Assembly (NCBI RefSeq): GCF_013364195.1 | Contig: NZ_CP054918.1 | Location: forward strand, 7,491,001-7,555,000 | DNA: 64,000 bases | Direction of reading: 5' to 3' | From: Streptomyces sp. NA04227 | GTDB lineage: Bacteria; Actinomycetota; Actinomycetes; Streptomycetales; Streptomycetaceae | Shown: positions 1-38,036 of the stretch, piece after piece | Layout of the letters: each line of letters opens with the position of its first letter | Numbering within the stretch: position 1 is the stretch's first letter | Notes under the pieces: generated by a model | The model's input: the letters and a program-made list of their open reading frames with translations, nothing else | Told to the model about the DNA's origin: nothing | Database searches by the model: none | Translations under genes and position numbers: made by a program

Positions 1-4
1 CCGC

Positions 5-2899: not shown

Positions 2900-3120
2900 C
2901 CGTGTGCCTCCGCACGAGTCCGTGGCTGCGGCTCAGGCTACTGGCAGGCGAAGACGCCGGACAGGAGTTCACCCCTGCCTCGGCTGCCTCGTTGTGATCC
3001 CGTGATCGCCAACTGGCGCAAGCCGTAGCAAAGTTGCTGCCAGGAGCGGCACGGCGCGGAGCAGCACAGCACGGAGCGGTCACAGCACCGAGCGGCAAGG
3101 CGGCGCCGGGTGGCAAAGCA

Positions 3121-3162
3121 CCGGGCGGCGCGGCAGCCTGCTTCGGCTGCCGCACCGCCCGG
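3121..3162 (-). terminator. Hairpin terminator of the M28 peptidase gene
   Basis: Two nested stems lie just beyond the stop codon of the leftward peptidase gene. CCGGGCGG (3121-3128) pairs with CCGCCCGG (3155-3162), and CGGCAGCC (3131-3138) pairs with GGCTGCCG (3145-3152), separated by a two-base internal bulge. It is a strong intrinsic-type hairpin without a clear U tract, as is common in Streptomyces. Confidence 0.7.
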
Positions 3163-3186
3163 TCTTCCGTGGGGGCGCGTGCGGGA

Positions 3187-4938
3187 TCAGCCCCCGGTCC
3201 TCACCTCCACGTCGTCCAGGACGAAGCTGGTCTGGAGGCTGGAGTCCTCGGTGGCGGAGAAGGTCAGGGTGACCTGCTTGCCCGCGTAGCCGTCGAGGGC
3301 GAGGGTGCGCTGCTGGTATCCGCTCGCCGCGTCCTTGTTGGACAGGGTCGCGAGAGTGGTGGTGCCGGCCTTGACCGTGAAGCGGTCGTAGACGGTGTTC
3401 TCGGTCTCGGCGGTGTCGATGTGCAGCCAGTACGTCAGGCTCGCCCGGTCACAGCCCGCCGGAACGGTCACCGTCTGGCTGAGGGTGTCGCTCTCGCTGC
3501 GTCCGTAGCCGCCGAGCCAGGCGAAGCGGGTGCCGCCGTGCGCCGCCTGACCATTGTGCGCGCCGATGGTGCCGGTGTCGCCGCTCCAGGGCGAAGTGCC
3601 GCTCTCGAAGCCGCCGTTGGACATCAGCTGGGCGGCCTGGCAGCTGCCCGAGCCCTTGACGGTGAGGGTGTACGTGGCGGTGCGGGTGACCGTTCCGGTG
3701 GCGGTGAAGGTCAGGGGGTAGGTGCCGGGGGCCACCGAGGAGCCCACCGTGATGGTGGCCGTGGACGACTGGCCCGAGGTCACCGTGGAGGGGCTGAAGG
3801 AGACACCGACCCCGGAAGGCGCGCCGGAGGCGGAAAGCTGCACGCTCTGTGCCGAGCCCTTGGTGGTCGTGGTGCTCACCGTGGAGGTCAGCGAGGTGCC
3901 GGGGTCGGCGCTGCCGCTGGTGGGGCTCGCCGCGACGGAGAAGTCGTCGGCGGGCGTCTCGGCGGAGGCGGCGAGGGACCACAGGGTGTGGGCGATGCCG
4001 TCGGCACTGCGGTCCAGGCCGGTGACGTTGACGTTGTTGATGTCGTCGCAGCGCGAGTGGTAGCAGCCGTCGTAGGCCGCGCCCGCCGTGCCGCCCCACT
4101 TGCTCGCCTGCGCGGAGGTCTTGCGGGCGCTGGCGCCCATCGCGTAGCCCGAGGTGGGGATGGAGTACTGCTCGAAGGAGTAGTCGTCGGAGCGGCCCGC
4201 GCCCTCGGTGTTCTCCTCCGGCTGGAGGTTCAGGGAGTCCCAGTACGCCTTCATCGGCTGGGCGGCGGTGGAGTTGATGTGGTTGATGAAGTAGCCGCCG
4301 TTGGGCGAGGCGATCATGTCGAAGTTGTAGTACGCCTTGATCGCCGAGCGCTGGGCGGAGGTCAGCGAACGCACGTAGAAGTCGGAGCCGTTGAGTCCCT
4401 GCTCCTCGTCGGTCCACCAGCCGAAGCGGACCCGGTTGGTCATGTTCGGGTTCTGTGCGGCGAGCGTCAGCGCGGTCTCCAGGAGGGCCGCGCTGCCGGA
4501 GGCGTTGTCGTTGATGCCGGGTCCGGACGAGACGCCGTCCAGGTGGGCGCCGAACATGTACACCTTGGCGGCGTCGCCCTTGGGCCACTCGGCGATCAGG
4601 TTGGGCCCGGCGCCACTGGTGCAGCCCGAGGTGCAGGGCTGCTCGGTCACCGTGTACCCGGCGGCCTGCAGCTTGCCCTTCACATAGGCGACGGAGTCGC
4701 GGTAGCCCTGGCCGGTGGAACGGCGGTTGCCGCCGTTGCGGGCGGCGATGTCGCTGAACTCGGTGAGGTGCGCGCGCACCTTCGTGATGTCGATGTCCGG
4801 CGCCGCGGAGGCGAGTTGGCCGGCGGCGGCGGCCTTGCCGCTCTGGTCGGTGGCCGTCGCGGAGGCGGCCGGCAGGGTGGCCAGGCCGAGCGTCACGGCC
4901 AGCGAGAGGCCGGCGAGGCTGAGTCTTCGTAGCACCAT
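3187..4938 (-). CDS. Secreted M28 zinc aminopeptidase with C-terminal beta domains
   Basis: A 583-residue exported aminopeptidase related to the Streptomyces griseus aminopeptidase. The ATG at 4938 follows AAGGAG closely, and the N terminus is a Sec signal peptide ([16 protein letters not shown], cleavage near ASA). The catalytic domain carries the M28 zinc-site motifs: [17 protein letters not shown], the Glu pair in DEEQG, an Asp in NFDMIA and a His in YHSRCDD. About 270 further residues follow, made of an Ig-like region rich in Ser and Thr and a jelly-roll region (NGGFESG to VLDDVEV) like those in secreted Streptomyces peptidases. It probably releases N-terminal amino acids from peptides outside the cell. 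It is monocistronic, ending in the hairpin at 3121-3162. Confidence 0.92.
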
Positions 4939-5263
4939 GGCTCCTTGTGGGGTTGAGAGGTGCCGGTTCCGCTGCCTGAGCGGTACCGAGGCGTACGCGG
5001 TGCGGTGCACGCGCGCACGGCCTCCCCCGTGTGCGGGCGGGGGTGTGCCGGGCCGGGCGGGCGTACGGAGATGCTGGCCGGGACAGGCCGCGGCCGTGGC
5101 CCCGAGTGCGGATCGGGACCGTCGGTGTGGCATGCCCATGCTTGTGCTCCGGGACATTCACACCCCGCGCCCGCGCGCGTCAACGGCTTGTCGGCGTCCA
5201 CGAAGAGCGGTCAAAAAGCGGCAAGTTGTGTCCGGTAATCGGGTACGGGTTGCCGTCAGGCGC
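4939..5263. other. Upstream region of the M28 peptidase gene
   Basis: This 325-base gap precedes the leftward peptidase gene. On the minus strand it holds a TTGACG hexamer (complement near 5181-5186) that could be a -35 element, but I see no convincing -10. No further gene is supported. Confidence 0.4.
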
Positions 5264-6199
5264 TCATGCCCCGGTGCGGCCGTCCACGGACTCCCGGATC
5301 AGGTCGGCGTGACCGTTGTGACGGGCGTACTCCTCGATGAGGTGGCACAGGATCCAGCGCAGGCTCGCCCTGCTGCCGTCGGGCCGTGCGCGCAGGGCGA
5401 GGCGTTCGGGGCCGCTCTCGGCGAGGGCCTCCGCGACCAGGCGGCGCGAGCGTGTCACCGAATCGCGCCACAGTGTGCGCAGTTGCCGTGGGCTGTCCCC
5501 GGCGGCCGAGTTCCAGTCCCAGTCGGGGTCGGCCGCCCAGTCCACGGTGTCCCAGGGCGGGTGCGGATCGCGGCCGTGCAGCCAGTGGGAGCACCACCGG
5601 TCCTCCACGCAGGCGAGGTGCTTGAGCATGCCGCCGAGGGTGAGCGAGGAGGTGGCGACCGTCGCCCGCAGCCCCGCTTCGTCGAGTCCCTCGCACTTCC
5701 ATGCCAGCGTCGCCCGCTGGTGGTCGAGGAAGCCGAGCAGGGTGGCGGTCTCGTCGGCCGCGAGCGGCGGCTCGGGCCTGCCGTGCTCGTCCAGGTGCCG
5801 CACGGCCGGTGTGTCCGGGCGTGAGGGCGGGCGGGCCGGAGCGGGGACCACGGCGGTGAGCGGGCGCGGTGCAGAGCCCGCGGCCCGCAACCGGGCCTCG
5901 GCCGCGCCGAGTTCGCCGCCGGTGCCGAGCACCGTGTCGAGCCGGGCCACCAGCGGCGCGGGCAGTTCGCGCAGGCCGCTCTCCCATTTGCTGATCAGGC
6001 TGTGGTGGTAGCCGAGCCGCAGGCCCAGCTGGGACTGGGTGAGTCCGGCCCGGCGCCGCAGATGCCGCAGCAGCCGTCCGAATTCCGCCCAGCCCGAGAG
6101 GGTCCTCGGCGCGGCGCGCATCATGCCCGCTCCGCGTTCCCCGCCGGGTTCCGGGCCTGACGTCGTCCCCTGGGGCATGGCGGCATCGCTGACAGGCAT
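5264..6199 (-). CDS. XRE-type HTH protein fused to a DUF664/DinB-like domain
   Basis: A 311-residue protein. The ATG at 6199 is preceded by GAGGAG at five bases, so longer in-frame starts are not needed. Residues about 35-90 are an XRE helix-turn-helix (LRRRAGLTQSQLGLRLGYHHSLISKWESG). Residues about 150-310 are a DUF664 domain of the DinB/mycothiol-transferase-like fold, with the His-containing motifs LKHLACVE and HLIEEYARHNGHADLIRE that normally bind a divalent metal. The C-terminal domain is usually a stand-alone actinobacterial protein of uncertain, thiol-linked function. The fusion suggests a regulator with an enzymatic or metal-sensing module, but no target or substrate can be named. Confidence 0.8.
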   Translation of the reverse strand: MPVSDAAMPQGTTSGPEPGGERGAGMMRAAPRTLSGWAEFGRLLRHLRRRAGLTQSQLGLRLGYHHSLISKWESGLRELPAPLVARLDTVLGTGGELGAAEARLRAAGSAPRPLTAVVPAPARPPSRPDTPAVRHLDEHGRPEPPLAADETATLLGFLDHQRATLAWKCEGLDEAGLRATVATSSLTLGGMLKHLACVEDRWCSHWLHGRDPHPPWDTVDWAADPDWDWNSAAGDSPRQLRTLWRDSVTRSRRLVAEALAESGPERLALRARPDGSRASLRWILCHLIEEYARHNGHADLIRESVDGRTGA

Positions 6200-23925: not shown

Positions 23926-26091
23926 TCAGAGAGCGGTGACATGAACCAGTACGGACTGCTCGGGGTGCGTCACCGGCACCTGGAGTCCGATCCGGGTCAG
24001 GGCGGCTCCCGGTATGCGTACGCCCTCGTCCCGCCACCAGGCGGGAGGCCGCAGACCGGCCGGGGGCGTGTCGACGTACAGCGGGCGCACCAGGTAGTGG
24101 CGGTCCGGGTCGAGGCCGGTGAGCCGGGCGTGCGGGGGCGCCGCCTGCTCGATCCAGGCGAGCGAGGCGATCTCGTACAGCGCCTGAGAACCGTCCTCGG
24201 CGACGACCCCGTGGGTCCACACACCGGCACAGGGGTCGGGTCCTCGCCATACCCGCCCGGTGGTGAGCAGCCGTCGGTGGGTCTTGTACAGGGCGATCCA
24301 CCGGGCGAGTTCGGCGCGCTCCTCCTCGGTGGCCGCTCCGAGGTCCCACTCCACGCCGAAGTGGCCGAAGAGGGCGGTCGCGGCGCGGAAGGACAGGTCG
24401 TGGGTACGGCCGGTGGTGTGCGAGCGCGGCGAGGCGATGTGGGAGCCCATCAGCTCGGGAGGCAGGAGCTGGCCGGTCCAGCGCAGCATGCGCTGCCGCT
24501 CCAGCGGATCGCTGACGTCGGAGACCCAGACCCGGTCGGTGAACTCCAGAATGCCGAGATCGATACGGCCGCCGCCCGCGGCGCACGACTCGATCTCCAG
24601 GCCGGGGTGGGCGCGCTTCAACTCGGCGAGCAACCGGTAGACGGCCAGCGTCTGTTCGTGTTCCCCCGGGGCGCCGCCGCGCGGCCGGATGCCCGCCTCC
24701 ACGTGGTCGCGGTTGTGGTCCCACTTCAGACAGTCGATCGGGTACGCGTCGAGGATCGCGTTGAGCTGGGTGAGGATCGCCTCGTAGCACTCGGGGATCG
24801 ACAGGTTGAGTACGTGCTGATGGCGCTGCTCGACGGGCAGTCGCTCCCTGGCCGCCATGATCCACTCCGGGTGGTTGCGCGCCAGGTCGGAGTCGAGGTT
24901 GACCATCTCCGGTTCCACCCACAGGCCGAACTGCATCCCGTGCTCGCGCACCGCGTCCACCAAGGGGTGCAGACCGTCCGGCCAGACGTCCTCGGCGACG
25001 GCCCAGTCGCCAAGGCCCGCCCGGGAGTTGCGGCGGGCGCCGAACCAGCCGTCGTCCAGGACCAGGCGTTCCACTCCCACTTCGGCGGCGAGGCGGGCCA
25101 GTTCGACCAGCCGGGCGGGATCGTGGTCGAAGTAGACGGCCTCCCACAGGTTCAGGGTGACCGGCCGCTCGGGTCCGACATGGTGCGGGCGGGCCCGCAG
25201 GAAGTCGTGGAACCGGTGGGCGACCCGGTCGAGCCCGTCGCCGTAGGCCGCGTACACCCACGGGGTCCCGTACTCGTCCCCGGTGTCGAGACCGATCTCG
25301 CCCGGCAGCAGCAACTCGCCGCCGCCGAGCAGCCGGATGCCGGTGCTGTCGTGTTCGGCGACATGACGGTGGTTGCCGCTCCAGGCGACATGGACGGCCC
25401 AGCTCTCACCGCGGCCGAAGTCGCTGCCCGGCTCGGTGGCGTGCAGGACGTACGCGGAGTCGAGCCCGCTGCGCCCGCGGCGGTTCTCGCGCAGATGCGT
25501 GCCCACCCCGAACTCCCGTCGCTGGGCGAGGCGTTCCATGCCCCAGCGTCCGGCGAAGTCGAGGAGTTCGGACGCCTGGTGGGGGACCGGCAGATAGAGG
25601 GTCAGCTCCTGGAGGTCGAACCGGTCGCCCTCGTTGACGAGCCGGGCACGCATCCGCACCAGGCCCGAGCCGAGCATCTCGACGGTCAGGATCAGCCGCA
25701 GTCGCGCGGCGCTGTCGACCGCGCCGATGCTCACACGGGCCGCACCCGTCTCCGCGTAGCCGGACAGCGGACGGCCGTCGACGGTGACGCTGTCCACGGT
25801 GAACGCGGGGGACCAGTCACGCCCGTCGCGGGAGCCGATCAGACCCGGGCGCCCCATCCAGCCGGTCCATGGTTCGGGCAGCACCGAAGTGGGCCCGGCG
25901 TCCAGTTCGCCCGACCAACTGCCGAGCCGGGTGGTGGCCCGGCAGACGTCCTCGGCCGCCGCGGCGTCCAATGTGCCGAGGTCGGCGCCCCAGTGTCGGA
26001 TCATCGGCAGCCGCTCGGCGGGGAACTCGATCAGCAGTGAGCAGCCGGAGGCGCGCAGATGCAGCCTCGGCGGCACGACGGACTCGGACAC
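23926..26091 (-). CDS. GH36 alpha-galactosidase, cytoplasmic
   Basis: A 721-residue enzyme without a signal peptide. The GTG at 26091 follows GAGGAG at five bases. It has the GH36 layout: an N-terminal beta-sandwich, a central TIM barrel and a C-terminal beta domain. The nucleophile is D458 in KWDHNRDH and the likely acid/base is D525 in WVSDVSDPLERQ, and VLDDGWFGAR lies ahead of them in the barrel. It would release galactose from alpha-galactosides inside the cell. A divergent sugar ABC importer (26356-29741) shares its upstream region and is the obvious supplier of substrate. Confidence 0.93.
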   Translation of the reverse strand: MSESVVPPRLHLRASGCSLLIEFPAERLPMIRHWGADLGTLDAAAAEDVCRATTRLGSWSGELDAGPTSVLPEPWTGWMGRPGLIGSRDGRDWSPAFTVDSVTVDGRPLSGYAETGAARVSIGAVDSAARLRLILTVEMLGSGLVRMRARLVNEGDRFDLQELTLYLPVPHQASELLDFAGRWGMERLAQRREFGVGTHLRENRRGRSGLDSAYVLHATEPGSDFGRGESWAVHVAWSGNHRHVAEHDSTGIRLLGGGELLLPGEIGLDTGDEYGTPWVYAAYGDGLDRVAHRFHDFLRARPHHVGPERPVTLNLWEAVYFDHDPARLVELARLAAEVGVERLVLDDGWFGARRNSRAGLGDWAVAEDVWPDGLHPLVDAVREHGMQFGLWVEPEMVNLDSDLARNHPEWIMAARERLPVEQRHQHVLNLSIPECYEAILTQLNAILDAYPIDCLKWDHNRDHVEAGIRPRGGAPGEHEQTLAVYRLLAELKRAHPGLEIESCAAGGGRIDLGILEFTDRVWVSDVSDPLERQRMLRWTGQLLPPELMGSHIASPRSHTTGRTHDLSFRAATALFGHFGVEWDLGAATEEERAELARWIALYKTHRRLLTTGRVWRGPDPCAGVWTHGVVAEDGSQALYEIASLAWIEQAAPPHARLTGLDPDRHYLVRPLYVDTPPAGLRPPAWWRDEGVRIPGAALTRIGLQVPVTHPEQSVLVHVTAL

Positions 26092-26355
26092 ATGAACTCC
26101 TCGATGGGATACAGCAAGCAAAAACGAACATAAATCAACAGGCACTGTCTCATGTGGTCGCCGGAATTCGGTGCAGGGTTCAGCCATGGCGCAGATCGGA
26201 CAAAAAGTCGTGTGAGCTGGGATTTATCCACGACACTCGCAGGCCTGCCCGGCGTAAAAGATCTTGATGTAGAGTCCTTGACTGGCGGGATCCGGTCGCA
26301 CCAGCATGCCCCACGTGTTCACTTCTGTTTGATTGCGTCGAAGGTGGTGGTGGGG
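26092..26355. promoter_or_regulatory. Divergent promoter region of the galactosidase and sugar importer
   Basis: A 264-base region that must hold promoters in both directions. AATCAACAG (about 26131-26139) and CTGTTTGATT (about 26325-26334) are near-inverted copies, one beside each gene, and could be binding sites for a shared repressor. It is more AT-rich than its surroundings. Confidence 0.45.
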
Positions 26356-27297
26356 ATGGATGAGCGGTCGACAGCGGTCGGCTCCTCGGTGATGGTTCCC
26401 GGAAACGTCAACGGGCGGCGCCGGGGCAGACGTCGGCGCGAACTCGGCTCGGCGATGGTCTTCGTCGGGCCCGCGCTCTTCGGGTTCCTGGTCTTCTTCG
26501 TCTGGCCCGCACTGCGCGGGATCTGGTACAGCCTCACCGAATGGGATCTGCTCGGCGACGCCTCGTTCGTGGGCCTCGACAACTACCGGGCACTGCTCGA
26601 GGACGAGGTCTTCTGGCGTTCGCTGGGGATCACCGCCGAATACGTGGCGATCAACATCGGACTGCAGACGGTGCTTGCCCTGGCCGTCGCGGTACTGCTG
26701 CACCGGCTGACCTCGTCCACGGTGATCCGCGGCATCGTGCTGCTGCCCTACCTCATCCCGAACGTGGTGGTGGCGCTGATGTTCCTGTGGATCCTGGACT
26801 TTAGGCTCGGCTTCGGAAACCAGGTCCTGGACTGGGCCGGGGCCGACCGCATCCCCTTCCTCGGCAGCGAGACCTGGGCCATTCCGACCATCGCCGGGAT
26901 CAACGTCTGGCGCCATCTCGGCTACACGGCCCTGCTGGTCTTCGCCGGACTGCAGACCATCCCCAAGGACGTCTACGAGGCCGCGGCCATCGACGGCGCC
27001 GGTGAGCTGAGGGTCTTCACCCGGATCACCCTGCCCCTGCTGCGCCCGGTGCTGGCCATGGTCCTGGTGATGACGGTGATCGGCTCGTTCCAGATCTTCG
27101 ACACGGTCGCCGTGACGACCGAGGGCGGCCCGGCCGACTCCACCAAGGTCATCTACTTCTACATCTTCGAGAAGACCTTCACGCAGTTCGAGTACGGCTA
27201 CGCCTCGGCGATGTCCGTGGTCCTGATGGCCCTGCTCGCCGTGATCACCCTCATCCAACTCCGGCTCATGCGAGCCGGCGAGTCGGACCTGGCATAG
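26356..27297 (+). CDS. Sugar ABC transporter permease, MalF/UgpA type
   Basis: A 313-residue membrane protein with six helices and the EAA loop (YEAAAIDGAGELRVFTRITLPLLRP). The cytoplasmic N terminus is Arg-rich. The ATG at 26356 sits after AAGGTGG; in-frame GTGs a few codons upstream are alternatives. It is the first gene of a permease-permease-binding-protein operon with no ATPase gene, so it probably uses a shared MsiK-type ATPase, as is usual in Streptomyces. Confidence 0.92.
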   Translation: MDERSTAVGSSVMVPGNVNGRRRGRRRRELGSAMVFVGPALFGFLVFFVWPALRGIWYSLTEWDLLGDASFVGLDNYRALLEDEVFWRSLGITAEYVAINIGLQTVLALAVAVLLHRLTSSTVIRGIVLLPYLIPNVVVALMFLWILDFRLGFGNQVLDWAGADRIPFLGSETWAIPTIAGINVWRHLGYTALLVFAGLQTIPKDVYEAAAIDGAGELRVFTRITLPLLRPVLAMVLVMTVIGSFQIFDTVAVTTEGGPADSTKVIYFYIFEKTFTQFEYGYASAMSVVLMALLAVITLIQLRLMRAGESDLA

Positions 27298-27315
27298 AGA
27301 GGCCGGTGCATCGTC

Positions 27316-28317
27316 ATGTCCCGTACCGAAGCGGCCGATTCCGTGCCCGCACCCGAACTCGCGCCCAACGCGGGGGAGTTGGACGAGGAAATCGTCCCGT
27401 CGAGTCCCGTGCGAAGAAGCGGCCCCGCCGCCCGGCGACCACGCCTGCCCTCACCCGGCCGGGCGGTGGCCTGGCTGGCTCTCGGCCTCGTCCTGCTCCT
27501 CACCCTGGTGCCGTTCTACCTGGTGCTGCGCACCGGCCTGTCCAACTCCCGGGCGCTGCCCTCGCACGCGGACTCGCTGCTGCCCGCCGAGTTCACCTGG
27601 GGCGCCTTCGAGCGGGTGCTCGGCCTCGCCGACCCGGAGGAGGCCCGCGCGCAGGGCGGCTCCGGCGCCTCCCTGTACTTCTGGGTGTACCTGCGCAACT
27701 CGGTGATCGTGGCCACCCTCGTCACCGTCGGCCAGGTGGCCTTCTCGACCATGGCCGCGTACGCCTTCGCGCGACTGCGCTGGCCCGGCCGTGACCTGGT
27801 CTTCTTCCTGTTCCTGACGGCCATGATGATCCCGCCGATCTTCACGATGCTGCCCAACTTCGTCCTCATCAAGGAACTCGGGCTGCTCAACACCTTCGCC
27901 GGGATCGTGGCGCCGCACTTCTTCATGACCCCGTTCGCGGTCTTCTTCATGCGGCAGTTCTTCCTGGGCATCAGTCACGAGATCGAAGAGGCGGCACGGA
28001 TCGACGGCGCGGGCCACTTCCGGATCTTCACGCGGATCATCCTCCCGATGAGCTCCGCCTCGCTGGCGACACTCGCCCTGCTGACGTATCTCCAGTCCTG
28101 GAACGAGTACTTGTGGCCGTACCTGGTCGGCCAGGACGAGAACGTCCGGGTGCTGACCGTCGCGCTCAGCGTGTTCCGTCAGCAGACCCCGGCGGGCAGC
28201 CCCGACTGGGCGGGCCTGATGGCCGCCACCACACTCGCGGCGCTCCCGATGGTCCTGCTGCTGCTCGTCTTCGGGCGACGCGTCATCAACTCCATCCAGT
28301 TCTCCGGTCTCAAGTGA
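27316..28317 (+). CDS. Sugar ABC transporter permease, MalG type
   Basis: A 333-residue membrane protein with a long N-terminal cytoplasmic tail (about 50 residues), six helices and the EAA loop (EEAARIDGAGHFRIFTRIILPM). It starts 18 bases after the MalF-type gene and forms the second half of the channel. Confidence 0.93.
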   Translation: MSRTEAADSVPAPELAPNAGELDEEIVPSSPVRRSGPAARRPRLPSPGRAVAWLALGLVLLLTLVPFYLVLRTGLSNSRALPSHADSLLPAEFTWGAFERVLGLADPEEARAQGGSGASLYFWVYLRNSVIVATLVTVGQVAFSTMAAYAFARLRWPGRDLVFFLFLTAMMIPPIFTMLPNFVLIKELGLLNTFAGIVAPHFFMTPFAVFFMRQFFLGISHEIEEAARIDGAGHFRIFTRIILPMSSASLATLALLTYLQSWNEYLWPYLVGQDENVRVLTVALSVFRQQTPAGSPDWAGLMAATTLAALPMVLLLLVFGRRVINSIQFSGLK

Positions 28318-28394
28318 CCGGCTCCCGCTCGCTCCGCGCCGTCCGGCATCCCCAACCGGGCGCCCCGGGGCGGTTCTCGAAGGAGAGCCCCCGT

Positions 28395-29741
28395 ATGAAA
28401 CTCACCCGCGTTCTGCTGTGCGGCGCGGCACTGCTGCCGCTCACGCTGAGCGGCTGCGCGCCGTCCGGCCTCGGCTCGTCCGCCCCCGGCCAACTGCGCT
28501 ACGCGCTCTGGGACACCAACCAACTGCCCGCCTACCAGGAGTGCGCCAAGGTCTTCGAGAAGGACCACCCCGGTATCCGCATCAAGTTCGAACAGAAGGG
28601 ATACAGCGACTACTGGTCGTCGCTGACCATGGGGTTCGTCGCCGAGACCGCCCCGGACGTCTTCGTGAACCATCTGAGCAAGTACGGCGAGTACATCACC
28701 AACGGCCAGATGGAGCCGCTGGACGAGCGCATCGCACGGGACAAGGTGGACACCGGCGCCTATGTGCCCGGCCTCGCCGAACTGTGGGTGGGCCCCGACA
28801 AGAAGCGCTACGGCCTGCCCAAGGACTGGGACACGGTCGCGCTCTTCTACAACGAGGACCTCACGCGCGAGGCGGGCATCGACGCGGCCGAACTCGCCTC
28901 ACTGGACTGGAATCCCCGGGACGGCGGCAGCTTCGAGAAGGTCCTGGCCCGGCTGAGCGTGGACCGGAACGGCGTCCACGGCGACGAGCCGGGCTTTGAC
29001 CGCGAGCACGTGCGCACCTACGGCTTCGGCTTCGGCGACAACGGCGGACAGGACCAGGGCCAGGTGCTGTGGTCCTGGCTCGCCGCCGCCAACGGCTGGA
29101 CGTTCACCGACAAGAACCCCTGGGGCAGCCGCTACCGCTACGACGACCCGCGTTTCGTCGAGGCCCTGTCCTGGCTGCGCGGGCTCATAGCCAAGGGGTA
29201 CGCGCCGCCGCTCGCGGAGGCGGACTCCGGCGTGGAGGCCTCCGACCAGTTCGGCGCCGGGAACTACGCCATGGTCGCCGACGGGGACTGGGGCATCGCC
29301 ACGTACCAGGGCCTCAAGGGGGTGAAGGCCGGACTCGCCCCGCTCCCCGAGGGTCCCACGGGCAAGCGCGCGAGCATGTTCAACGGCCTGGCCGACTCCA
29401 TCTGGTCCGGCAGCGAGAAGAAGGAGGAGGCCTGGCAGTGGGTGAAGTTCCTGTCCGGTGAGCGGTGCCAGAACATCGTCGCCCGGCACGGCGTCGTCTT
29501 CCCGGCGCGGCCCGAGGCGACCCGCATCGCCAAGGACGCGTTCCGGGACAAGGGCGTGGACGTCACCCCGTTCACCACCCACGTCGAAAAGGGAACCACC
29601 TTCGAGATGCCGGTCACGGACCGTGCCGGGGACATCCTGGCCCTGCTCGACCCCGCCCTGGACCGGGTGCTGTCCGGGAAATCCGCGCCGGGACCGGAGA
29701 TGGGGAAGCTCAATCGTGAGGTGAACCGGCTCCTGGAGTAG
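28395..29741 (+). CDS. Sugar ABC transporter substrate-binding lipoprotein
   Basis: A 448-residue family-1 solute-binding protein. The ATG at 28395 follows AGGAG, and the lipobox ends at C21 (TLSGC). The mature protein starts QLRYALWDTNQLPAYQECAKVFEKDHPGI, typical of sugar-binding proteins. It follows the two permeases and is divergent from the GH36 alpha-galactosidase, so an alpha-galactoside is the best guess for the ligand. Confidence 0.92.
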   Translation: MKLTRVLLCGAALLPLTLSGCAPSGLGSSAPGQLRYALWDTNQLPAYQECAKVFEKDHPGIRIKFEQKGYSDYWSSLTMGFVAETAPDVFVNHLSKYGEYITNGQMEPLDERIARDKVDTGAYVPGLAELWVGPDKKRYGLPKDWDTVALFYNEDLTREAGIDAAELASLDWNPRDGGSFEKVLARLSVDRNGVHGDEPGFDREHVRTYGFGFGDNGGQDQGQVLWSWLAAANGWTFTDKNPWGSRYRYDDPRFVEALSWLRGLIAKGYAPPLAEADSGVEASDQFGAGNYAMVADGDWGIATYQGLKGVKAGLAPLPEGPTGKRASMFNGLADSIWSGSEKKEEAWQWVKFLSGERCQNIVARHGVVFPARPEATRIAKDAFRDKGVDVTPFTTHVEKGTTFEMPVTDRAGDILALLDPALDRVLSGKSAPGPEMGKLNREVNRLLE

Positions 29742-29994: not shown

Positions 29995-31347
29995 GTGACA
30001 TCAGGGACGTTCACCGTCAACGGCAAGACCTATGTCAAGCCGAGCTGTCCTGTCGTCGTCATCTGCATCGACGGAAGCGAGCCGGACTACCACCTCGAAG
30101 CGATGGCAGCCGGACGGATGCCCTGGCTCAGCAAGGTCCTGGCCGGTGAGGGCAGCTCATGGCCCGCGCACTGCGCCATGCCCGCGCTCACCAACCCGAA
30201 CAACGTGTCCATCGCGACCGGCCACCCGCCCGCGGTGCACGGCATCAGCGGCAACTACCTCTTCGACACCGAACTCGGTGAAGAGGTGCTGATGAACGAC
30301 AAGCGCTTCCTGCGCGTCCCCACGGTCTTCGCGGCGGCCAACGAGGCCGGTCTGGACGTGGTCGTGGTGACCGCCAAGGACAAGCTGCGCAGGCTGCTCG
30401 GCGCCGGGCTCGTCGAGGAGGGACCCGCCCTGGACGGTTCCGGCGAGTTCGTCGCGCCGTCCCGGCGGGGCATCTGCTTCTCGGCGGAGAAGGCCGACCT
30501 GGCGACGGTCGCGGACAACGGCATCGACGATGTGCTCGCCCTCGTCGGCAAGCCGCTGCCCAGCGTGTACTCGGCCGACCTCAGCGAGTTCGCGCTCGCC
30601 GCGGGCGTACGGATCATGGAGACGCGCGGCGCGGACCTGATGTACCTGTCGCTGACCGACTACATCCAGCACAAGAACGCGCCGGGCACCGAGGCCGCCA
30701 ACGATCTCTACGAGAAGATCGACCACTACGCGGGCCGGCTCGCGGAGCTCGGCGCGATCGTCGTGCTCACGGCGGACCACGGAATGAGCGCCAAGACCGA
30801 CGACGCGGGCCGCGCGCGGGTCGTCTACGTCGAGGAGGAGGTCCGCCGGATCCTCGGCATCGCCCCCGACGCCGAGGCGGGCGACCTCCGGGTGATCCTC
30901 CCGATCACCGACCCGTACACCGTGCACCACGGCGCCCTCGGCTCCTTCGCGAGCGTGCACCTGCCCGAGGGCGTCGACGCCGCGGCCGTCATCGAGGCCC
31001 TGCGCACCGTCGACGGGGTGCAGGAGGTCCACGACCGCGAGACCGCCGCCGAGCGCTACGCCCTCCCCGCGGACCGCATCGGCGATGTCGTCATCCTCGC
31101 GGAGGCCGGGACCGCGCTGGGCCGCTTCGCCGCCTGGCACGACCTCAGCGGTCTCGACGCTCCGCTGCGCTCCCACGGAGCCCTCGGCGAACTGCGGATC
31201 CCGTTCCTGATCAACCGGAGGCTCCCCGCTCCCGAGCCGCTCGACAAGCCCTTCGGCGACCAGGCCCTGGTCCACAACTACGACGCCTTCTGGGTGGCCA
31301 CCACCTTGGTCGCACAGCAGGAGAGCGGAACCGCTCACGCGCTCTGA
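29995..31347 (+). CDS. phnA: Phosphonoacetate hydrolase
   Basis: A 450-residue cytoplasmic enzyme of the alkaline phosphatase superfamily that cleaves phosphonoacetate to acetate and phosphate. The GTG at 29995 follows AAGGAG at five bases. The N terminus VNGKTYVKPSCPVVVICIDG is distinctive for PhnA. Metal and catalytic residues are visible: D26 in CIDGSEPDY, the likely nucleophile T66 in PALTNPNN, SLTDYIQHK, LTADHGMS and a late His in VHHGALGSFA. Length and motifs match the Pseudomonas and Sinorhizobium enzymes. It heads a four-gene rightward cluster with a transporter, an alcohol dehydrogenase and an aldehyde dehydrogenase. Confidence 0.93.
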   Translation: MTSGTFTVNGKTYVKPSCPVVVICIDGSEPDYHLEAMAAGRMPWLSKVLAGEGSSWPAHCAMPALTNPNNVSIATGHPPAVHGISGNYLFDTELGEEVLMNDKRFLRVPTVFAAANEAGLDVVVVTAKDKLRRLLGAGLVEEGPALDGSGEFVAPSRRGICFSAEKADLATVADNGIDDVLALVGKPLPSVYSADLSEFALAAGVRIMETRGADLMYLSLTDYIQHKNAPGTEAANDLYEKIDHYAGRLAELGAIVVLTADHGMSAKTDDAGRARVVYVEEEVRRILGIAPDAEAGDLRVILPITDPYTVHHGALGSFASVHLPEGVDAAAVIEALRTVDGVQEVHDRETAAERYALPADRIGDVVILAEAGTALGRFAAWHDLSGLDAPLRSHGALGELRIPFLINRRLPAPEPLDKPFGDQALVHNYDAFWVATTLVAQQESGTAHAL

Positions 31348-31464
31348 CACAGCGGGGCCGTCCCTTCCCGCCCCACGAGGGACGGCCACCGCTCCGGCGG
31401 TCGCCACCGCCTTCCCCCCGCCGTCTCCCCGCGGCGGAAACGGCACCCCAGATCGGTCGGAATC

Positions 31465-32766
31465 ATGTCCAGCACAGAGAAGTTGACGTCCGGGAACCGC
31501 ACCCCGGAACCTCTGCGGCAAGACCAGTACAACCGGCTCAAGTGGCGCATGCTGCTCGCGGCCATGTTCTGCTACTTCTTCTTCTACACGGGCCGCCAGA
31601 CCTTCGGTTTCGCCATCCCCGGTATCGAGGAGGACCTCGGCCTGAGCAAGGCCACCCTCGGCGCGATCAGCGGCATCCTGCTCTGGTCCTACGCCGCCGG
31701 ACAGATGATCAACGGCAACCTCGCCGACAAGTGGGGCGGGCGGCGCATGATGGCCGCCGGTGCCGTACTGTCCACGCTGCTCAACTGGGCCACCAGCTTC
31801 GCCGTCGGAGCACGCTCGCTCGGCGTGCTCTGGGGCGCGAACGGATACGCGCAGTCCCTGGGCTGGCCCTCCGGCGGCCGCGTGATCTCCAACTGGTGGT
31901 CACCGAGCGAGCGGGGCAAGAGCTTCGGCTTCTACACCTTCGCCGCGGGCATGGCCTCCGTACTCGCCTACGTCACCTCCACCGTCATGGTGGACACACT
32001 CGACCTCGACTGGCAGTGGATCTTCCGGCTGCCGGTGCTGCTCATGCTGGTGGGCGGGCTCGTCTTCTTCCTCGTGGCCAGGGACAGCCCCCGCCAGGCG
32101 GGCGTCACCCCGCCCCGGGCCGTCCAGGAGGAGGACGACACCGACGGCACGGACCAGGCGCCCGGCGAGACGTCCCTCCAGCGATACAAGGCCGTACTGC
32201 GCAAACCCGGGATCTGGTCCGCCGGAATCGCGATCGGCTTCCAGAACACCGCCCGCTACGGCCTGTTGATCTGGGTCCCGGTCTATTTCCTCGGCGAGGA
32301 CTGGAAGGACGGCGGCAGTTCCATCAGCCCGCTGTGGATCTCCGTCGCCCTGCCGGTGGGCATGGCGGTCGGCGCGCTGGTCAACGGCCAGATATCGGAC
32401 CGCCTGTTCGGCGCCCGACGGGACCGTCCGATCATCCTGTTCATGGTGCTCGGCGCGGTGATGGCGCTGACGATGTACAAGGCACCGCTGGGCACGACGA
32501 GCGGCATCGTCGTTCTCTTCCTCACCGGGTTCTTCGTCTACGGGCCCCAGTCCTCGTTCTGGGCCCTGTGCCCCGACATCGCGGGCAAGCGGATGGCCGG
32601 TACGGCCACCGGGGCCGTCAACTGCTTCGCCTATCTCTTCGCCGGAGCCGCCGAGCCGATGATCGGCCACCTCATGGACAGCACCGGCAACACCAGCCTG
32701 ATCTTCCCGCTCGTGGCCGTGGCCTGCGGATGCAGCGCCCTGGTCGCTCTGACGATCCGGCGTTAG
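31465..32766 (+). CDS. OPA-family MFS transporter, GlpT-like
   Basis: A 433-residue twelve-helix transporter with the organophosphate:phosphate antiporter signature (CYFFFYTGRQTFGFAIPGIEEDLGLSKATLG). Pseudomonas phosphonoacetate operons also pair the hydrolase with a GlpT-like protein (PhnB). By that precedent this one imports a small phosphonate, possibly phosphonoacetate or a precursor, in exchange for phosphate. The charged central loop (about residues 210-230) is typical of two six-helix halves. Confidence 0.88.
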   Translation: MSSTEKLTSGNRTPEPLRQDQYNRLKWRMLLAAMFCYFFFYTGRQTFGFAIPGIEEDLGLSKATLGAISGILLWSYAAGQMINGNLADKWGGRRMMAAGAVLSTLLNWATSFAVGARSLGVLWGANGYAQSLGWPSGGRVISNWWSPSERGKSFGFYTFAAGMASVLAYVTSTVMVDTLDLDWQWIFRLPVLLMLVGGLVFFLVARDSPRQAGVTPPRAVQEEDDTDGTDQAPGETSLQRYKAVLRKPGIWSAGIAIGFQNTARYGLLIWVPVYFLGEDWKDGGSSISPLWISVALPVGMAVGALVNGQISDRLFGARRDRPIILFMVLGAVMALTMYKAPLGTTSGIVVLFLTGFFVYGPQSSFWALCPDIAGKRMAGTATGAVNCFAYLFAGAAEPMIGHLMDSTGNTSLIFPLVAVACGCSALVALTIRR

Positions 32767-32783
32767 CCGGGAGGGACACGCAC

Positions 32784-33884
32784 ATGACCCAACTCAGCAG
32801 CCCGGCCCGCGATGTGAGGATCCCCCAGGACCCTGCCGCCGCCGTCTGGTCGGGCACGCGAAGCGGCTTCACCGTACGGGCCGAACCCCTTCCGCGACTG
32901 CGGGACGGCGAAGTCCTCGTACAGGTCGAACTGGCCACCCTCTGCGGCAGCGACCTGCACACCATCGCCGGGGACCGGCCCACCCCGGTGCCCACCGTCC
33001 TCGGGCACGAGGCGGTCGGGTACGTGAGCGCGGTCGGCGGCACCGTGCACACGGCCGACGGCCGGCCGGTGACCGAGGGACAGCGGGTCACCTGGACCAT
33101 CGGCACCTCCTGCGGCACCTGCCGCCGCTGCCTGCGCGGTGTGCCGCAGAAGTGCCTGGCCGTGCGCAAGTACGGGCACGAGGCGCTCACCGACGCATGG
33201 CGGTACAACGGCGGGCTCGCCACCCACTGTCACCTGGTCCCGGGGACCGGCCTGGTGCCGGTGCCCGCCACGATCCCCGCCGCCGTCGCCGCCCCGGCGA
33301 ACTGCGCCACCGCCACCGTGGTGTGCGCGGCCCGGCGCACCGAGCTGGGCGCGGGGGACACGGTGGTCGTCACCGGCTGCGGGATGCTCGGCCTGACCGC
33401 CGTGGCCTACGCCCGCGACCGGGGCGCCGCGCACGTCATCGCCTGTGACGTCGACGCGGGCCGCCGCGACCTGGCCCTCAAGTTCGGTGCGGACGTGGCC
33501 TGTTCACCCGGCGCGCTCGAAACCGCGGTCAGGGACCTCGGCGCCGACGTGGTGCTCGAACTGTCCGGCAACCACCGGGCCGTCCAGTCCGCCCTGGACC
33601 TGGTCGGACTCGACGGGCGCGTGGCGCTCGTCGGTTCGGTGTCACCCGGGCCGAAGGTGAGCTTCGAGCCGAACGCCTTCGTGCGCAATCTGAGCCGCGT
33701 GGTGGGAAGCCACAACTACGCCGTACAGGACCTCGCCGAAGCGGTGGACTTCCTCGGCCGTACGGAGCGGCAGGACCTGTTCGCCGCACTGGTGCCCGCG
33801 TCCTTCCCGCTCGCGGAGATCGACGCGGCCGTGGCCGCGGCCCGTACCGGCGGCGCGCCGCGCATCGCGGTCCACATGGACTGA
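32784..33884 (+). CDS. Phosphonate-associated zinc alcohol dehydrogenase
   Basis: A 366-residue medium-chain dehydrogenase. Catalytic zinc ligands are C54 (CGSDLH) and H75/E76 (GHE). The structural zinc site is C110, C113, C116 and C124, and the NAD site is VVVTGCGMLGLTAVAY. It resembles a clade of zinc alcohol dehydrogenases repeatedly found beside phosphonate-degradation genes. In this setting I infer oxidation of 2-hydroxyethylphosphonate to phosphonoacetaldehyde. It starts 18 bases after the transporter gene, with GGGAGGG upstream. Confidence 0.85.
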   Translation: MTQLSSPARDVRIPQDPAAAVWSGTRSGFTVRAEPLPRLRDGEVLVQVELATLCGSDLHTIAGDRPTPVPTVLGHEAVGYVSAVGGTVHTADGRPVTEGQRVTWTIGTSCGTCRRCLRGVPQKCLAVRKYGHEALTDAWRYNGGLATHCHLVPGTGLVPVPATIPAAVAAPANCATATVVCAARRTELGAGDTVVVTGCGMLGLTAVAYARDRGAAHVIACDVDAGRRDLALKFGADVACSPGALETAVRDLGADVVLELSGNHRAVQSALDLVGLDGRVALVGSVSPGPKVSFEPNAFVRNLSRVVGSHNYAVQDLAEAVDFLGRTERQDLFAALVPASFPLAEIDAAVAAARTGGAPRIAVHMD

Positions 33885-34000
33885 CAACCGCCCCCCTCGC
33901 CCTTGCCCTCATCGCCATCCGCCCCCACCGACCTCGACATCGCCCGAACCCGCTGCCGCGCAGCCCTTGTTGGGCCGCCTCACCTCATACGGAGTCACGC

Positions 34001-35455
34001 ATGGCGCAGCCGAGCGCAGACCATCTGCTCAACCACATCGACGGCCGGTGGCTGCCGTCCGGGACCGGACGGGTACGGCCGAACCTCAACCCGGCGGACA
34101 CGGACGACGTCGTGGGCGAGTTCACCGAGTCCGGCGCCGAGGACACCGCCGCCGCCGTCACCGCGGCGACCGGGGCGCTCAAGGACTGGGACGCCCTCGG
34201 CCCCATCGCACGCGCCAAGGTGCTCACCGGCGCCGCGGCCCTGATCGGCGAGCGCCGCGAGGAGTTCGCCGAGGCGATCACCCGCGAGCAGGGCAAACGG
34301 CTGGCCGAGGGCAGGGGCGAGGTCGCGCGCTCGCTGGCGATCCTGGACTTCACCGTCGGCGAGGCCCGGCGCATCAACGGCGTCACCACACCGGCCGAGG
34401 AACCGCGCACCCTGGCCATGACCTTCCGCCGCCCGCTCGGCGTCGTCGGCCTGATCACCCCCTGGAACTTCCCCGTCGCGATCCCGATGTGGAAGGTCGC
34501 ACCCGCCCTGGTCGCGGGCTGTACCGCGGTACTCAAGCCCTCGCCGCTGACCCCGTGGACCTCGGCCCTCCTCGTCCAGGCCTTCGCCGACGCCGGACTG
34601 CCCCCGGGCGTACTGAACCTGGTGCAGGGCGACCGCGAGCCTGGCGAGGCGCTCGTCACCGATCCCCGCGTGGCGGGCCTGTCCTTCACCGGCTCCCTCC
34701 CGGTCGGGCAGGCCATCAACCGCTCCGGCGCCGGGAGGCTGCTGCGCACCCAGCTCGAACTCGGCGGCAAGAACGCCCTGATCGTCCTCGCCGACGCGGA
34801 CCTCGACGCCGCCGTGGACGCCATCGTGCACGGGGCGTTCGGACAGAGCGGACAGCGGTGCAGCGCCACCAGCCGGGTCATCGTGGACCGCGCCGTACGC
34901 GAACAGCTCCTCGACCGCCTCGTACCGCGGGTCGCCGCCATGCGGATCGGGCGCGGGGACCAGGACTGGGCGGACATCGGCCCGGTGGTGAACGAGGAGA
35001 GGATGCGGGCCTGCCTGGCGGCGGTGCGTGGGGCCGTCGCCTCCGGCGCGAAGGTCGCCTGCGGCGGCGGGCGCGCCGAACGCGACACCCCCGGGTACTT
35101 CGTCGAACCCACCGTCCTCACCGACGTCGCCTGGGACAGCGAGATCGCCCAGGAGGAGGTCTTCGGGCCGGTGCTCTCGGTCATCGACTGCGAGGGCTAC
35201 GAGGACGCGATGCGCATCTCCAACTCGGTGAAGTACGGGATGTCCGGCACCATCTTCACCAGGGACTCGGCACTGATGTTCCAGGCCCTGCAGGACTTCC
35301 AGGCAGGCATGCTGCACGTCAACCGGCCCGGCGTGGGCGCGTACTCCCATCTGCCGCACATGGGTGCCAAGGCCTCGCAGCTCGGCGCGCCCGAATGCTC
35401 GCCCGACGTCTGGGACTTCTACACCGACCTGAGGTCGGCGTGCATCAAGTACTGA
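34001..35455 (+). CDS. Aldehyde dehydrogenase, probable phosphonoacetaldehyde dehydrogenase
   Basis: A 484-residue NAD(P)-dependent aldehyde dehydrogenase with catalytic C287 (SGQRCSATSR) and E253 (LELGGKNA) and the Rossmann motif FTGSLPVG. It is near the PhnY/ketoglutarate-semialdehyde dehydrogenase branch. In Sinorhizobium the PhnY enzyme makes phosphonoacetate for PhnA, and gene order here supports the same role. The ATG at 34001 has GGAG nine bases upstream. It ends ten bases from the stop of the convergent LysR gene. Confidence 0.85.
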   Translation: MAQPSADHLLNHIDGRWLPSGTGRVRPNLNPADTDDVVGEFTESGAEDTAAAVTAATGALKDWDALGPIARAKVLTGAAALIGERREEFAEAITREQGKRLAEGRGEVARSLAILDFTVGEARRINGVTTPAEEPRTLAMTFRRPLGVVGLITPWNFPVAIPMWKVAPALVAGCTAVLKPSPLTPWTSALLVQAFADAGLPPGVLNLVQGDREPGEALVTDPRVAGLSFTGSLPVGQAINRSGAGRLLRTQLELGGKNALIVLADADLDAAVDAIVHGAFGQSGQRCSATSRVIVDRAVREQLLDRLVPRVAAMRIGRGDQDWADIGPVVNEERMRACLAAVRGAVASGAKVACGGGRAERDTPGYFVEPTVLTDVAWDSEIAQEEVFGPVLSVIDCEGYEDAMRISNSVKYGMSGTIFTRDSALMFQALQDFQAGMLHVNRPGVGAYSHLPHMGAKASQLGAPECSPDVWDFYTDLRSACIKY

Positions 35456-36506: not shown

Positions 36507-38036
36507 ATGTCAACCGACGGCGTGTCCCGCCGAACCGTGCTCGCCGCGAGTGCCGCGACGGCGGCCCTCGCCGCCACCGGCCTCGCGACCGCCCGGGAGG
36601 CCGCGGCCGCCCCCACCCTTCCCGACGGCACCAGCGACGACAAGATCCTGATCGTCGGCATGGACGGACTCCGCCACGACCGGATCGAGGCGGCGAACGC
36701 GCCGAACCTCAAGGCGATGATGAGCAACGGCACCTACGCCAGATCCCTGCTGTACGCCAACCCGATGGCGCCGACCGTCTCCGGCGCGGGCTGGTCGACG
36801 GTCTCGACGGGCGTCTGGCCGGACAAGCACGGCGTGAAGGACAACAACTTCACGGGCGCCCGGTTCGACGAGTACCCGGGCCTGATGGCGCGTCTGGCCG
36901 AGGTCGCACCGCGCCTGTCCACGTACGCGGCCGTCGACTGGCCGCCGCTGGACACCTACGGTGCGATCACCGCGGGCGCGGACGCCAAACTGGTACTGCC
37001 GCAGCACGACATCCCCAACGACCAGAAGATCGCCGACGAGGCGGCGTCGATCCTCCGGAACCAGAACCCGGACGTCCTCTTCGTCTACTTCGGCTACACC
37101 GACCAGGTCGGCCACGAGAGCGGGACGGGCGAGCGCTATCTGGACGCGATCGCCGGACAGGACGTGCATCTCGGCAGGCTCAGAGCGGCCATCGAGGCCA
37201 GGCCCACGTACGCCTCGGAGCGCTGGACGATCCTGGTCACCACGGACCACGGTCATGTCGACGCGGGCGGGCACGGCGGCAGCTCGATCGAGGAGCGGCG
37301 CACCTTCATCCTCGCCGAGGGACCCGGGATCGAAGCGGGCGGGCGTCCCCTCGACACCCGTCTCGTGGACGTGGTGCCCACGGTGTTCAAGCAGTTGAAG
37401 CTGCCCGTCGACCCCGCCTGGGGCCTGGACGGCAAGCCGATCCAGGAGCGCACCGACGACCGCTTCGACACGCTCCAGGGCAAGCTCGGCACCCGGGTCG
37501 ACGAGACAGGCATCCCCGCCGACATCCTCGGTTTCACCCACACCGCGCCGTCCGGCTGGTCCGTCGACAACAAGTCCATGGGCACCGGCGGCGTCACCGA
37601 ATGGCGCGGCTGGACCTTCACCACCGACGACTTCTGGTCGCGAACCCAGCGCGACCAGTGGCGTGAACTGAACGTCCGCGCCCGCGGCGTCTTCGCCGTC
37701 GCCGACTCCGACGAGTGGTCCGACAAGACCTTCTCCGGCCCCTTCGACTCGACCCTCGTATCGCCGACGTACGGGATCTCCGGCAAGAGCGAGCTCACCC
37801 TCAAGTTCATCACCCACTACCGCCAGGTGGAACAGCAGACGGCGAAGGTGCTCGTGGCCTTCAATGCCAAAACCCCGCAGGTGATCAAGAGTTACACCGC
37901 CGACGTCATCTCGCAGCAGCAGTCCCTCGACATAGCCGTCCCGGACGGCGCGACCTCGGTGCACTTTCGCTTCCACTACACAGGAGACAACGACTTCTTC
38001 TGGGTGGTCGACCGGTTCCAGCTCTACGCCTCCTGA
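36507..38036 (+). CDS. Tat-secreted type I phosphodiesterase (alkaline phosphatase superfamily)
   Basis: A 509-residue exported hydrolase. The ATG at 36507 follows GGAGGA, and the Tat signal is SRRTVLAASAATAALAATG. Residues about 45-310 form a nucleotide pyrophosphatase/phosphodiesterase domain with metal residues in VGMDGLRHD, YFGYTDQVGHESG and TTDHGHVDAGGHGG, and the nucleophile region GWSTVSTGVWPDKHGV. Residues about 330-509 are a beta-rich domain of unknown role. It could cleave phospho- or phosphonate esters outside the cell. Being divergent from the LysR gene of the phosphonate cluster, release of phosphonates from a polymer is an attractive but unproven role. Confidence 0.87.
   Translation: MSTDGVSRRTVLAASAATAALAATGLATAREAAAAPTLPDGTSDDKILIVGMDGLRHDRIEAANAPNLKAMMSNGTYARSLLYANPMAPTVSGAGWSTVSTGVWPDKHGVKDNNFTGARFDEYPGLMARLAEVAPRLSTYAAVDWPPLDTYGAITAGADAKLVLPQHDIPNDQKIADEAASILRNQNPDVLFVYFGYTDQVGHESGTGERYLDAIAGQDVHLGRLRAAIEARPTYASERWTILVTTDHGHVDAGGHGGSSIEERRTFILAEGPGIEAGGRPLDTRLVDVVPTVFKQLKLPVDPAWGLDGKPIQERTDDRFDTLQGKLGTRVDETGIPADILGFTHTAPSGWSVDNKSMGTGGVTEWRGWTFTTDDFWSRTQRDQWRELNVRARGVFAVADSDEWSDKTFSGPFDSTLVSPTYGISGKSELTLKFITHYRQVEQQTAKVLVAFNAKTPQVIKSYTADVISQQQSLDIAVPDGATSVHFRFHYTGDNDFFWVVDRFQLYAS

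Follow-up and report, generated by a model that had tools for sequence, protein, structure and literature searches.

The PhnWAY system of Sinorhizobium meliloti (phnW-phnA-phnY) converts phosphonoacetaldehyde (PAA) to phosphonoacetate and this to acetate and phosphate, and in the PbfC/PbfD-fed pathways (PMC10590968) PAA is supplied from another phosphonate by a dedicated oxidoreductase. The phnA region of Pseudomonas fluorescens 23F (PMC10574752) comprises PhnA, putative transporters and a LysR protein needed for induction, and a C-P lyase route (PMC5649143) uses 2-hydroxyethylphosphonate (HEP) as phosphorus source, yielding ethylene. Here we describe a run of four consecutive genes in a 64,000-nucleotide stretch of the Streptomyces sp. 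NA04227 genome (G000:C1:7491001-7555000, hereafter the window), which encodes a phosphonoacetate hydrolase (PhnA), a transporter, a zinc alcohol dehydrogenase (ADH) and an aldehyde dehydrogenase (ALDH). With a probability of roughly 60%, we read this cluster as a PhnW-independent hydrolytic phosphonate pathway, in which HEP would be oxidised through PAA to phosphonoacetate and the latter cleaved to acetate and phosphate. The genome (label G000), a single contig of 7,894,562 bases, was searched whole; family membership was called at the curated bit-score cut-offs of the NCBIfam models, and Pfam was used for domains. The four genes, and two neighbours that the preliminary description does not mention, are:

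29995..31347, + strand: PhnA, phosphonoacetate hydrolase (phosphonoacetate to acetate and phosphate); TIGR02335 above cut-off, aligns with 3szy and 1ei6
31465..32766, + strand: transporter of the MFS type, similar to OPA antiporters, which probably imports phosphonoacetate and/or HEP; PF07690, TIGR00881 below cut-off
32784..33884, + strand: zinc alcohol dehydrogenase (Zn-ADH), proposed HEP dehydrogenase forming PAA; TIGR03366 above cut-off
34001..35455, + strand: aldehyde dehydrogenase (ALDH), proposed PAA dehydrogenase of a family other than PhnY; PF00171
35466..36368, - strand: LysR-type regulator, likely controlling the cluster and perhaps also 36507-38036; PF00126 and PF03466
36507..38036, + strand: protein resembling phosphodiesterases and nucleotide pyrophosphatases, with a Tat-like leader, its gene running divergently to that for LysR; PF01663

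The genes of the four-gene run are separated by gaps of 117, 17 and 116 bp, and their order on one strand, as given in the preliminary description, was confirmed, with both PhnA and the ADH exceeding the curated cut-offs. This order is not due to chance, since it is found in six other actinobacterial genomes with 52-84% identity per protein. The transporter would import phosphonoacetate and probably HEP, the Zn-ADH would oxidise HEP to PAA, the ALDH would oxidise PAA to phosphonoacetate, PhnA would release acetate and phosphate from it, and the LysR protein would probably sense a phosphonate of the pathway. The reading builds on the observed families of PhnA and the ADH, the gene order and its recurrence, the lack of PhnW at its cut-off, and the replacement of the ADH in similar clusters; we infer from these the substrates and direction of the ADH and ALDH, the cargo of the transporter and the regulation.

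The PhnA of S. meliloti is 49% identical over 434 aa to that of the window, and a LysR gene lies near both; PhnWAY differs, however, in that here an ADH stands in the place of PhnW and the ALDH belongs to another family (31% identity to PhnY). Several phnW clusters possess an ABC transporter for 2-aminoethylphosphonate (AEP), whereas the window cluster has an MFS transporter. PbfC and PbfD are FAD enzymes (PMC10590968), instead of which the window cluster encodes a Zn-ADH, while the PbfD-type clusters of the same genus share with it both PhnA and the ALDH family. For the P. fluorescens 23F phnA region, the accessible part of PMC10574752 names neither an ADH nor an ALDH. The combination of PhnA with a transporter and LysR is already known, and the proposed ADH entry and its iron-dependent counterpart (see below) are new. 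Searches of open-access literature for a catabolic HEP dehydrogenase, or for the name of TIGR03366, returned no report of such an enzyme; the HEP catabolism found there is that by C-P lyase (PMC5649143). Oxidation of HEP to PAA has been named as a possible feed of hydrolytic pathways and was excluded for PbfF by coupling to PhnX and looking for release of phosphate from HEP (excerpt of PMC12366243). As the TIGR03366 model is named 'putative phosphonate catabolism associated alcohol dehydrogenase', a link to phosphonate genes must have been recognised earlier.

PhnA, which starts with GTG preceded by AAGGAG, scores 469.2 bits against TIGR02335 (cut-off 407.55) and aligns over nearly its full length with the solved phosphonoacetate hydrolases 3szy and 1ei6, with the TNPNN and TADHGM stretches retained. 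Its identification as phosphonoacetate hydrolase is borne out by this family assignment, hydrolysis of phosphonoacetate being the predicted activity.

The Zn-ADH (366 aa, ATG at 32784) scores 363.6 bits against TIGR03366, above the cut-off of 328.1, in agreement with the preliminary description, which calls it phosphonate-associated. Residues are numbered here from base 32772, four residues ahead of the ATG, so that R69 corresponds to Arg65 of the 366-aa protein. Among 34 aligned ADHs the presumed ligands of the catalytic zinc (C58, H79 and C178), the four presumed structural-zinc cysteines, and R69 are all invariant. When 38 ADH loci were scanned with a pattern that left the Arg free, 36 matched (L060 and L073 gave no match) and all 36 carried the Arg, within the stretch C[GS]SDxHTxxGxR. 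The position of R69 is occupied in 1rjw and 1llu by the Trp of a GDWP stretch, which we take to line the substrate pocket of yeast-type ADHs; in 1vj0, the nearest structure to the predicted model (ordinary MDR Zn-ADH fold, mean pLDDT 86.0), it is not Trp. An anionic substrate would be in keeping with an invariant Arg at this site. Mapped on the ADH tree (36 rows), the five locus labels require 7 changes, compared with a mean of 22.0 for shuffled labels; none of 200 shuffles gave so low a number. The ADHs of the PhnA-ADH-ALDH-LysR type (hereafter cassettes) do not form one clade, and that of Pseudonocardia is excluded from a group in which the remaining cassette ADHs are united with those of the Rhodococcus type (support 92/93, not starred).

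The ALDH contains PF00171, and its best NCBIfam match, NF042993 (ketoglutaric semialdehyde dehydrogenase), is below its cut-off at 460.7 bits. It had been described as PhnY-like, an assignment that we reject: TIGR03250 (PhnY; cut-off 635.65 bits, exceeded by S. meliloti PhnY with 853.7) is not among the best 25 of the 42 NCBIfam families matched, all 25 of which score below their cut-offs (the 25th at 263.7 bits), and identity to the PhnY proteins of S. meliloti and Variovorax is 31-32%. Arg positions common to the ALDH and PhnY were dropped as evidence, such positions being frequent in aldehyde dehydrogenases. Identity to the ALDHs of the sibling clusters L051, L076, L079 and L083 is 58-72%.

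The transporter was likewise only partly as described: it belongs to MFS_1 (PF07690), but "OPA-type" holds as a resemblance and not as membership, because the best NCBIfam model, TIGR00881, is matched with 203.3 bits against a cut-off of 407.75. It is 61-78% identical in six other cassettes and 51-61% identical in five plasmid records, two of which (L103 and L105) have an iron ADH with phnA and phnY; that of the Ensifer iron-ADH cluster is 61% identical to the window's. A LysR relative adjoins all seven other PhnA/ADH/ALDH cassettes read, and induction by phosphonoacetate in P. fluorescens 23F requires a LysR protein (excerpt of PMC10574752).

The absence of PhnW, noted earlier for the cluster, extends to the whole genome at the curated cut-off (best score 62.3 bits, cut-off 400.8). 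PhnW was likewise above cut-off in none of the 24 genomes holding ADH loci, nor in seven further sequences, of which six are genomes of the same genus that have PhnA-like genes and the seventh is a Variovorax plasmid record (the plasmid without its chromosome). At the sensitivity of the PhnW model, the relatives of the ADH thus do not always carry phnW elsewhere. Of the scores under the threshold in ADH-bearing genomes, the highest is 160.7 bits in Pseudonocardia, from a protein 28% identical to S. meliloti PhnW, and a divergent transaminase below the sensitivity of the model may fill the role of PhnW. The preliminary description had taken PhnW as the start of the route to phosphonoacetate; this stands as one known entry but not as the only one, since PbfA, PbfC and PbfD also make PAA (excerpts of PMC12366243 and PMC10590968). 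PEP mutase was above cut-off nowhere in the window's genome (best 59.3 bits, cut-off 319.55), and synthesis of a phosphonate such as HEP by the strain itself was rejected as an explanation.

From the alignment of 34 ADHs (A1), 24 ADH loci in genomes of the Genome Taxonomy Database (GTDB) were collected and read by tblastn with window and reference proteins. PhnA, ADH, ALDH and LysR occur together in seven of them, six with the transporter in the order PhnA-transporter-ADH-ALDH (L038 and L052 from Kribbella, L039 from Agromyces fucosus, L040 and L041 from Mycobacterium, L051 from Pseudonocardia) and one without it (L042, Ruania); L053 shows ADH-ALDH followed by the contig end. Eight loci (L043, L044, L046-L050 and L054) have a PhnX-like hydrolase, a GntR regulator, a PbfD homologue, PhnD, PhnE and the ADH, with PhnA also adjoining the ADH in L044 and lying about 9 kb away in L048, and four (L056-L059) have PhnE, PbfD, PhnX-like and ADH. 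The remaining four (L037, L045, L055 and L060) have no partner of the PhnA or PhnX-like type adjoining the ADH, PhnA being 9 kb off in L045. The ADH is therefore near a proposed PAA-consuming enzyme in 20 of the 24 loci (in L053 through the ALDH alone), 12 of these with a PhnX-like protein and a PbfD homologue; assignments were confirmed with NCBIfam models for examples only (TIGR03364 in L046 and L059, PhnE in L047 and L044, TIGR03351 in L046). In a draw across the phylum, TIGR03366 was above cut-off in 8 of 396 genomes (at most five candidates scored per genome), giving nine further ADHs (L067-L075), of which L067 is the second ADH of the window's genome; a PhnX-like match lies near the ADH in L068, L070, L071, L072 and L074, and none was found in L069, L073 and L075.

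In a second set of clusters the ADH is replaced by a PbfD homologue beside PhnA and the same ALDH family. This was found in four loci of the same genus (L076-L079) and in Brevibacterium (L083), whose ALDHs are 58-68% identical to that of the window; their transporter matches are distant (25-30% in L076, L077, L079 and L083; none in L078). Reading 14 PhnA-ALDH clusters gave eight with the ADH and without PbfD (the window, L038-L042, L051 and L052), five with PbfD and without an ADH inside the cluster (L076-L079 and L083) and one with neither (L082), and a seventh same-genus PhnA-like locus, L081, with PhnA below cut-off, has LysR and neither ADH nor PbfD. The PbfC and PbfD enzymes that have been assayed convert N-methyl-AEP to PAA, and PbfD accepts AEP as well, whereas neither oxidised HEP (excerpt of PMC10590968); the five PbfD clusters likely represent a phnW-less AEP or N-methyl-AEP route in Actinomycetota. 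That one ALDH family is paired with two different preceding enzymes suggests PAA as the ALDH substrate, and HEP would be the simplest substrate of the ADH, because PAA is the shared metabolite.

A comparable arrangement with an unrelated enzyme exists on proteobacterial plasmids, where a TIGR03405-type iron ADH ('PsrA'), like the Zn-ADH, accompanies PAA-consuming enzymes and LysR; these clusters differ in that the iron ADH is unrelated to the Zn MDR enzymes and the ALDH is of the PhnY type. Variovorax plasmid CP063167 has the order phnA - iron ADH - phnY. Against TIGR03405 (cut-off 423.7 bits) the iron ADHs of Variovorax (526.5) and Ensifer (L103:6001-7107; 431.2) pass and that of Vibrio (398.4) falls below. 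Nine records with such an ADH were found, and eight stretches were read with about 6 kb on each side (L109 by tblastn alone): four have phnA and phnY (L066, L103, L105 and L106), two have phnX (L104 and L107), and two have neither phnA-phnY nor phnX (L108, which has phnDCE, and L109), so that phnA-phnY, phnX or phnDCE accompanies the iron ADH in seven of the eight. S. meliloti PhnW gave no tblastn match (E <= 1e-5) in these eight stretches, and, in five phnW-bearing records read from among 116 PhnA plasmid records, no alcohol dehydrogenase was seen in the stretch (L065 by tblastn; L114-L117 by incomplete gene tables). That two unrelated ADHs have partners of like kinds suggests that both catalyse one reaction, interconversion of HEP and PAA, and the plasmid clusters likely represent a parallel HEP route. 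In L066, the phnA-ADH-phnY genes of Variovorax come after genes for an amidase and a urea-type ABC transporter (1-5810).

Several findings weigh against the HEP pathway. L038-L053 were retrieved by means of the ADH, whose presence there is thus by construction. The Brevibacterium loci L045 and L083 are parts of one contig, on which PbfD, ALDH and PhnA stand together and the ADH lies 9 kb beyond PhnA; a strict exclusion between ADH and PbfD was withdrawn, as this contig carries both within about 17 kb, and for the same reason the two are positional alternatives and not strictly exclusive. The PhnA and ALDH matches on this contig are in two pieces each, and the ADH sits among phenylacetate genes. 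Three genomes (G166, G206 and the metagenome assembly G210) have PhnA and ADH with no ALDH at E <= 1e-100, among nine genomes searched. In G166 (L080 8435-10675) a PhnA relative of 87% identity is followed by a partial transporter match, and no ALDH match was found in that stretch, which is perhaps a decayed cassette. The ADH of Streptomyces CB02261 (L037) is unlinked from its LysR-PhnA-ALDH genes (L082). Within the same genus, TIGR02335 is above cut-off in 6 of 199 genomes and TIGR03366 in 5 of 199, with both in two (G000 and G166), so in three of the five ADH-bearing genomes PhnA is not above cut-off. The phylum-wide draw yields no co-occurrence statistic for PhnA and ADH, because the window's genome was the only one of the 396 with PhnA above cut-off (at most four candidates scored per genome). 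PbfD (TIGR03364) is above cut-off elsewhere in four of the nine cassette genomes (G000, G200, G201 and G214; the nine include G215, the genome of L053), and one is present in a tenth genome searched, G199. In favour of the HEP pathway, PbfD is not above cut-off in the other five (G202, G203, G204, G213 and G215, where PhnW is also not above cut-off), a count for which 84 of 111, 131, 195 and 85 candidates were scored in four of the five and in which G204 and G215 are metagenome assemblies. The PbfD homologue of the window's genome, at 2.44 Mb, looks self-contained, as a PhnX-like match adjoins it; exchange of PAA between this route and the cassette is possible. Finally, in 12 of the 24 loci the ADH could act on acetaldehyde released by the PhnX-like enzyme. 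Our confidence in the HEP pathway, and in its extension to other phyla given below, was lowered slightly because of the Brevibacterium contig with both ADH and PbfD and because G210 is a third genome without a close ALDH.

The transporter subfamily also occurs on two Caballeronia plasmids with LysR-phnA-MFS only and, at 57% identity, next to genes for an M20-type hydrolase and a LysR protein on a Phyllobacterium plasmid (L110 5530-8257, a stretch in which no PhnA is annotated), both of which count against a HEP-specific system, and the transporter was dropped as a marker of HEP. Since it accompanies PhnA alone elsewhere, phosphonoacetate itself is probably imported too; phosphonoacetate would most simply be the cargo, with HEP possible. 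The Caballeronia arrangement fits the strongest of the alternatives, which we consider unlikely: a phosphonoacetate module of transporter, PhnA and LysR, joined by an ADH-ALDH pair acting on a different hydroxyphosphonate, such as a longer or dihydroxylated alkylphosphonate. This alternative is also consistent with the ability of the P. fluorescens 23F PhnA to degrade, to a lesser extent, 2-phosphonopropionate (excerpt of PMC10574752). Against it stands the common point of PAA, at which the same ADH family meets PhnX-like enzymes and the same ALDH family meets PbfD homologues, the members of the latter that were assayed making PAA (excerpt of PMC10590968).

Less probable still is that the ADH runs in the opposite direction and reduces phosphonoacetaldehyde, either to make HEP or to remove surplus PAA. 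The accessible part of PMC9381506 reads phpC of catabolic operons and pepM-less genomes as part of a conversion of AEP through PAA to HEP, the Vibrio relative of the iron ADH is annotated as phosphonoacetaldehyde reductase, and the window's genome has a PbfD elsewhere. A reductase would nevertheless require a source of PAA, and PhnW is absent at cut-off, PbfD is also not above cut-off in five of the nine cassette genomes, and the window's genome has no PEP mutase above cut-off; moreover, the ADH stands between the transporter and the ALDH, with PhnA in the same gene run. That the ADH and ALDH serve a non-phosphonate alcohol (for example ethanol/acetaldehyde) as mere neighbours of PhnA appears highly improbable: acetaldehyde would be the product in the PhnX-like loci, the best NCBIfam model of the ALDH is ketoglutaric semialdehyde dehydrogenase and two ADH loci (L037 and L045) lie among unrelated genes, but the PhnA branch yields no acetaldehyde, the order is conserved in the window's genome, Kribbella, Agromyces, Mycobacterium and Pseudonocardia, and an unrelated iron ADH occupies a like place in other phyla. 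The chain from HEP through PAA and phosphonoacetate to acetate, proposed in the preliminary description, is retained as the best reading, with comparative support from the PhnW-less recurrence and from other PAA-forming or ADH-type enzymes in the place of the ADH, without its PhnY-like ALDH and without PhnW as sole entry, and with HEP as the ADH substrate predicted from gene context.

The second TIGR03366 ADH of the window's genome (381429-382334, 414.7 bits) is located outside the window with genes for a PhoD-like protein, PhnD, PhnE and a GntR regulator (L067 9283-15397, G000:C1 at about 381-388 kb). The same set recurs in L080 (there followed by PhnA and a partial transporter), L084 and L086, and L085 has it without matches to PhnD and PhnE. 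It can exist without PhnA, because PhnA is not above cut-off in G019, G070 and G179 (L084-L086); as a guess, the set could be a second uptake route for the same substrate. Directly upstream of PhnA in the window are a GH36-like gene and a sugar ABC transporter (23926-29741), which were dropped as members of the system, not being found beside other cassettes.

The PF01663 protein (36507-38036) has a Tat-like SRRTVL leader, and its gene is separated from the LysR gene by a divergent 138-bp spacer. Relatives were found in 16 copies in 12 genomes: ten have PhnA or PbfD/PhnX-like genes at a distance of less than 10 kb (the window, L087 twice, L092-L097 and L038), five (L098-L102) are without such neighbours, and the neighbourhood of the sixteenth copy (G214:C34) was left out of the count. 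Beside a PhnA/ADH cassette proper, the gene is present only in the window and L038. It may be speculated that the protein frees phosphonates from esters.

Extending the comparison across phyla, we tentatively propose, at somewhat less than even odds, that dedicated HEP mineralisation has at least two origins, Actinomycetota using a Zn-ADH and Pseudomonadota an iron ADH to supply the enzymes that consume PAA, and that secreted phosphodiesterases of the same genus, encoded close to clusters of this kind, release HEP and related phosphonates from their esters; HEP would in this way be converted to acetate and phosphate without ethylene. According to the accessible part of PMC9381506, several phosphonate natural products are made via HEP, esters of HEP and methylphosphonate account for as much as 20% of the phosphorus of high-molecular-weight organic matter in the sea, and 53% of phpC genomes are without pepM. 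If the HEP pathway proves true, the dehydrogenase route would yield acetate instead of ethylene from HEP, and C-P lyase would not be needed; it would also give a function to TIGR03366, so far only 'putative' by name, and it offers another reading of phpC-type genes in pepM-less genomes.

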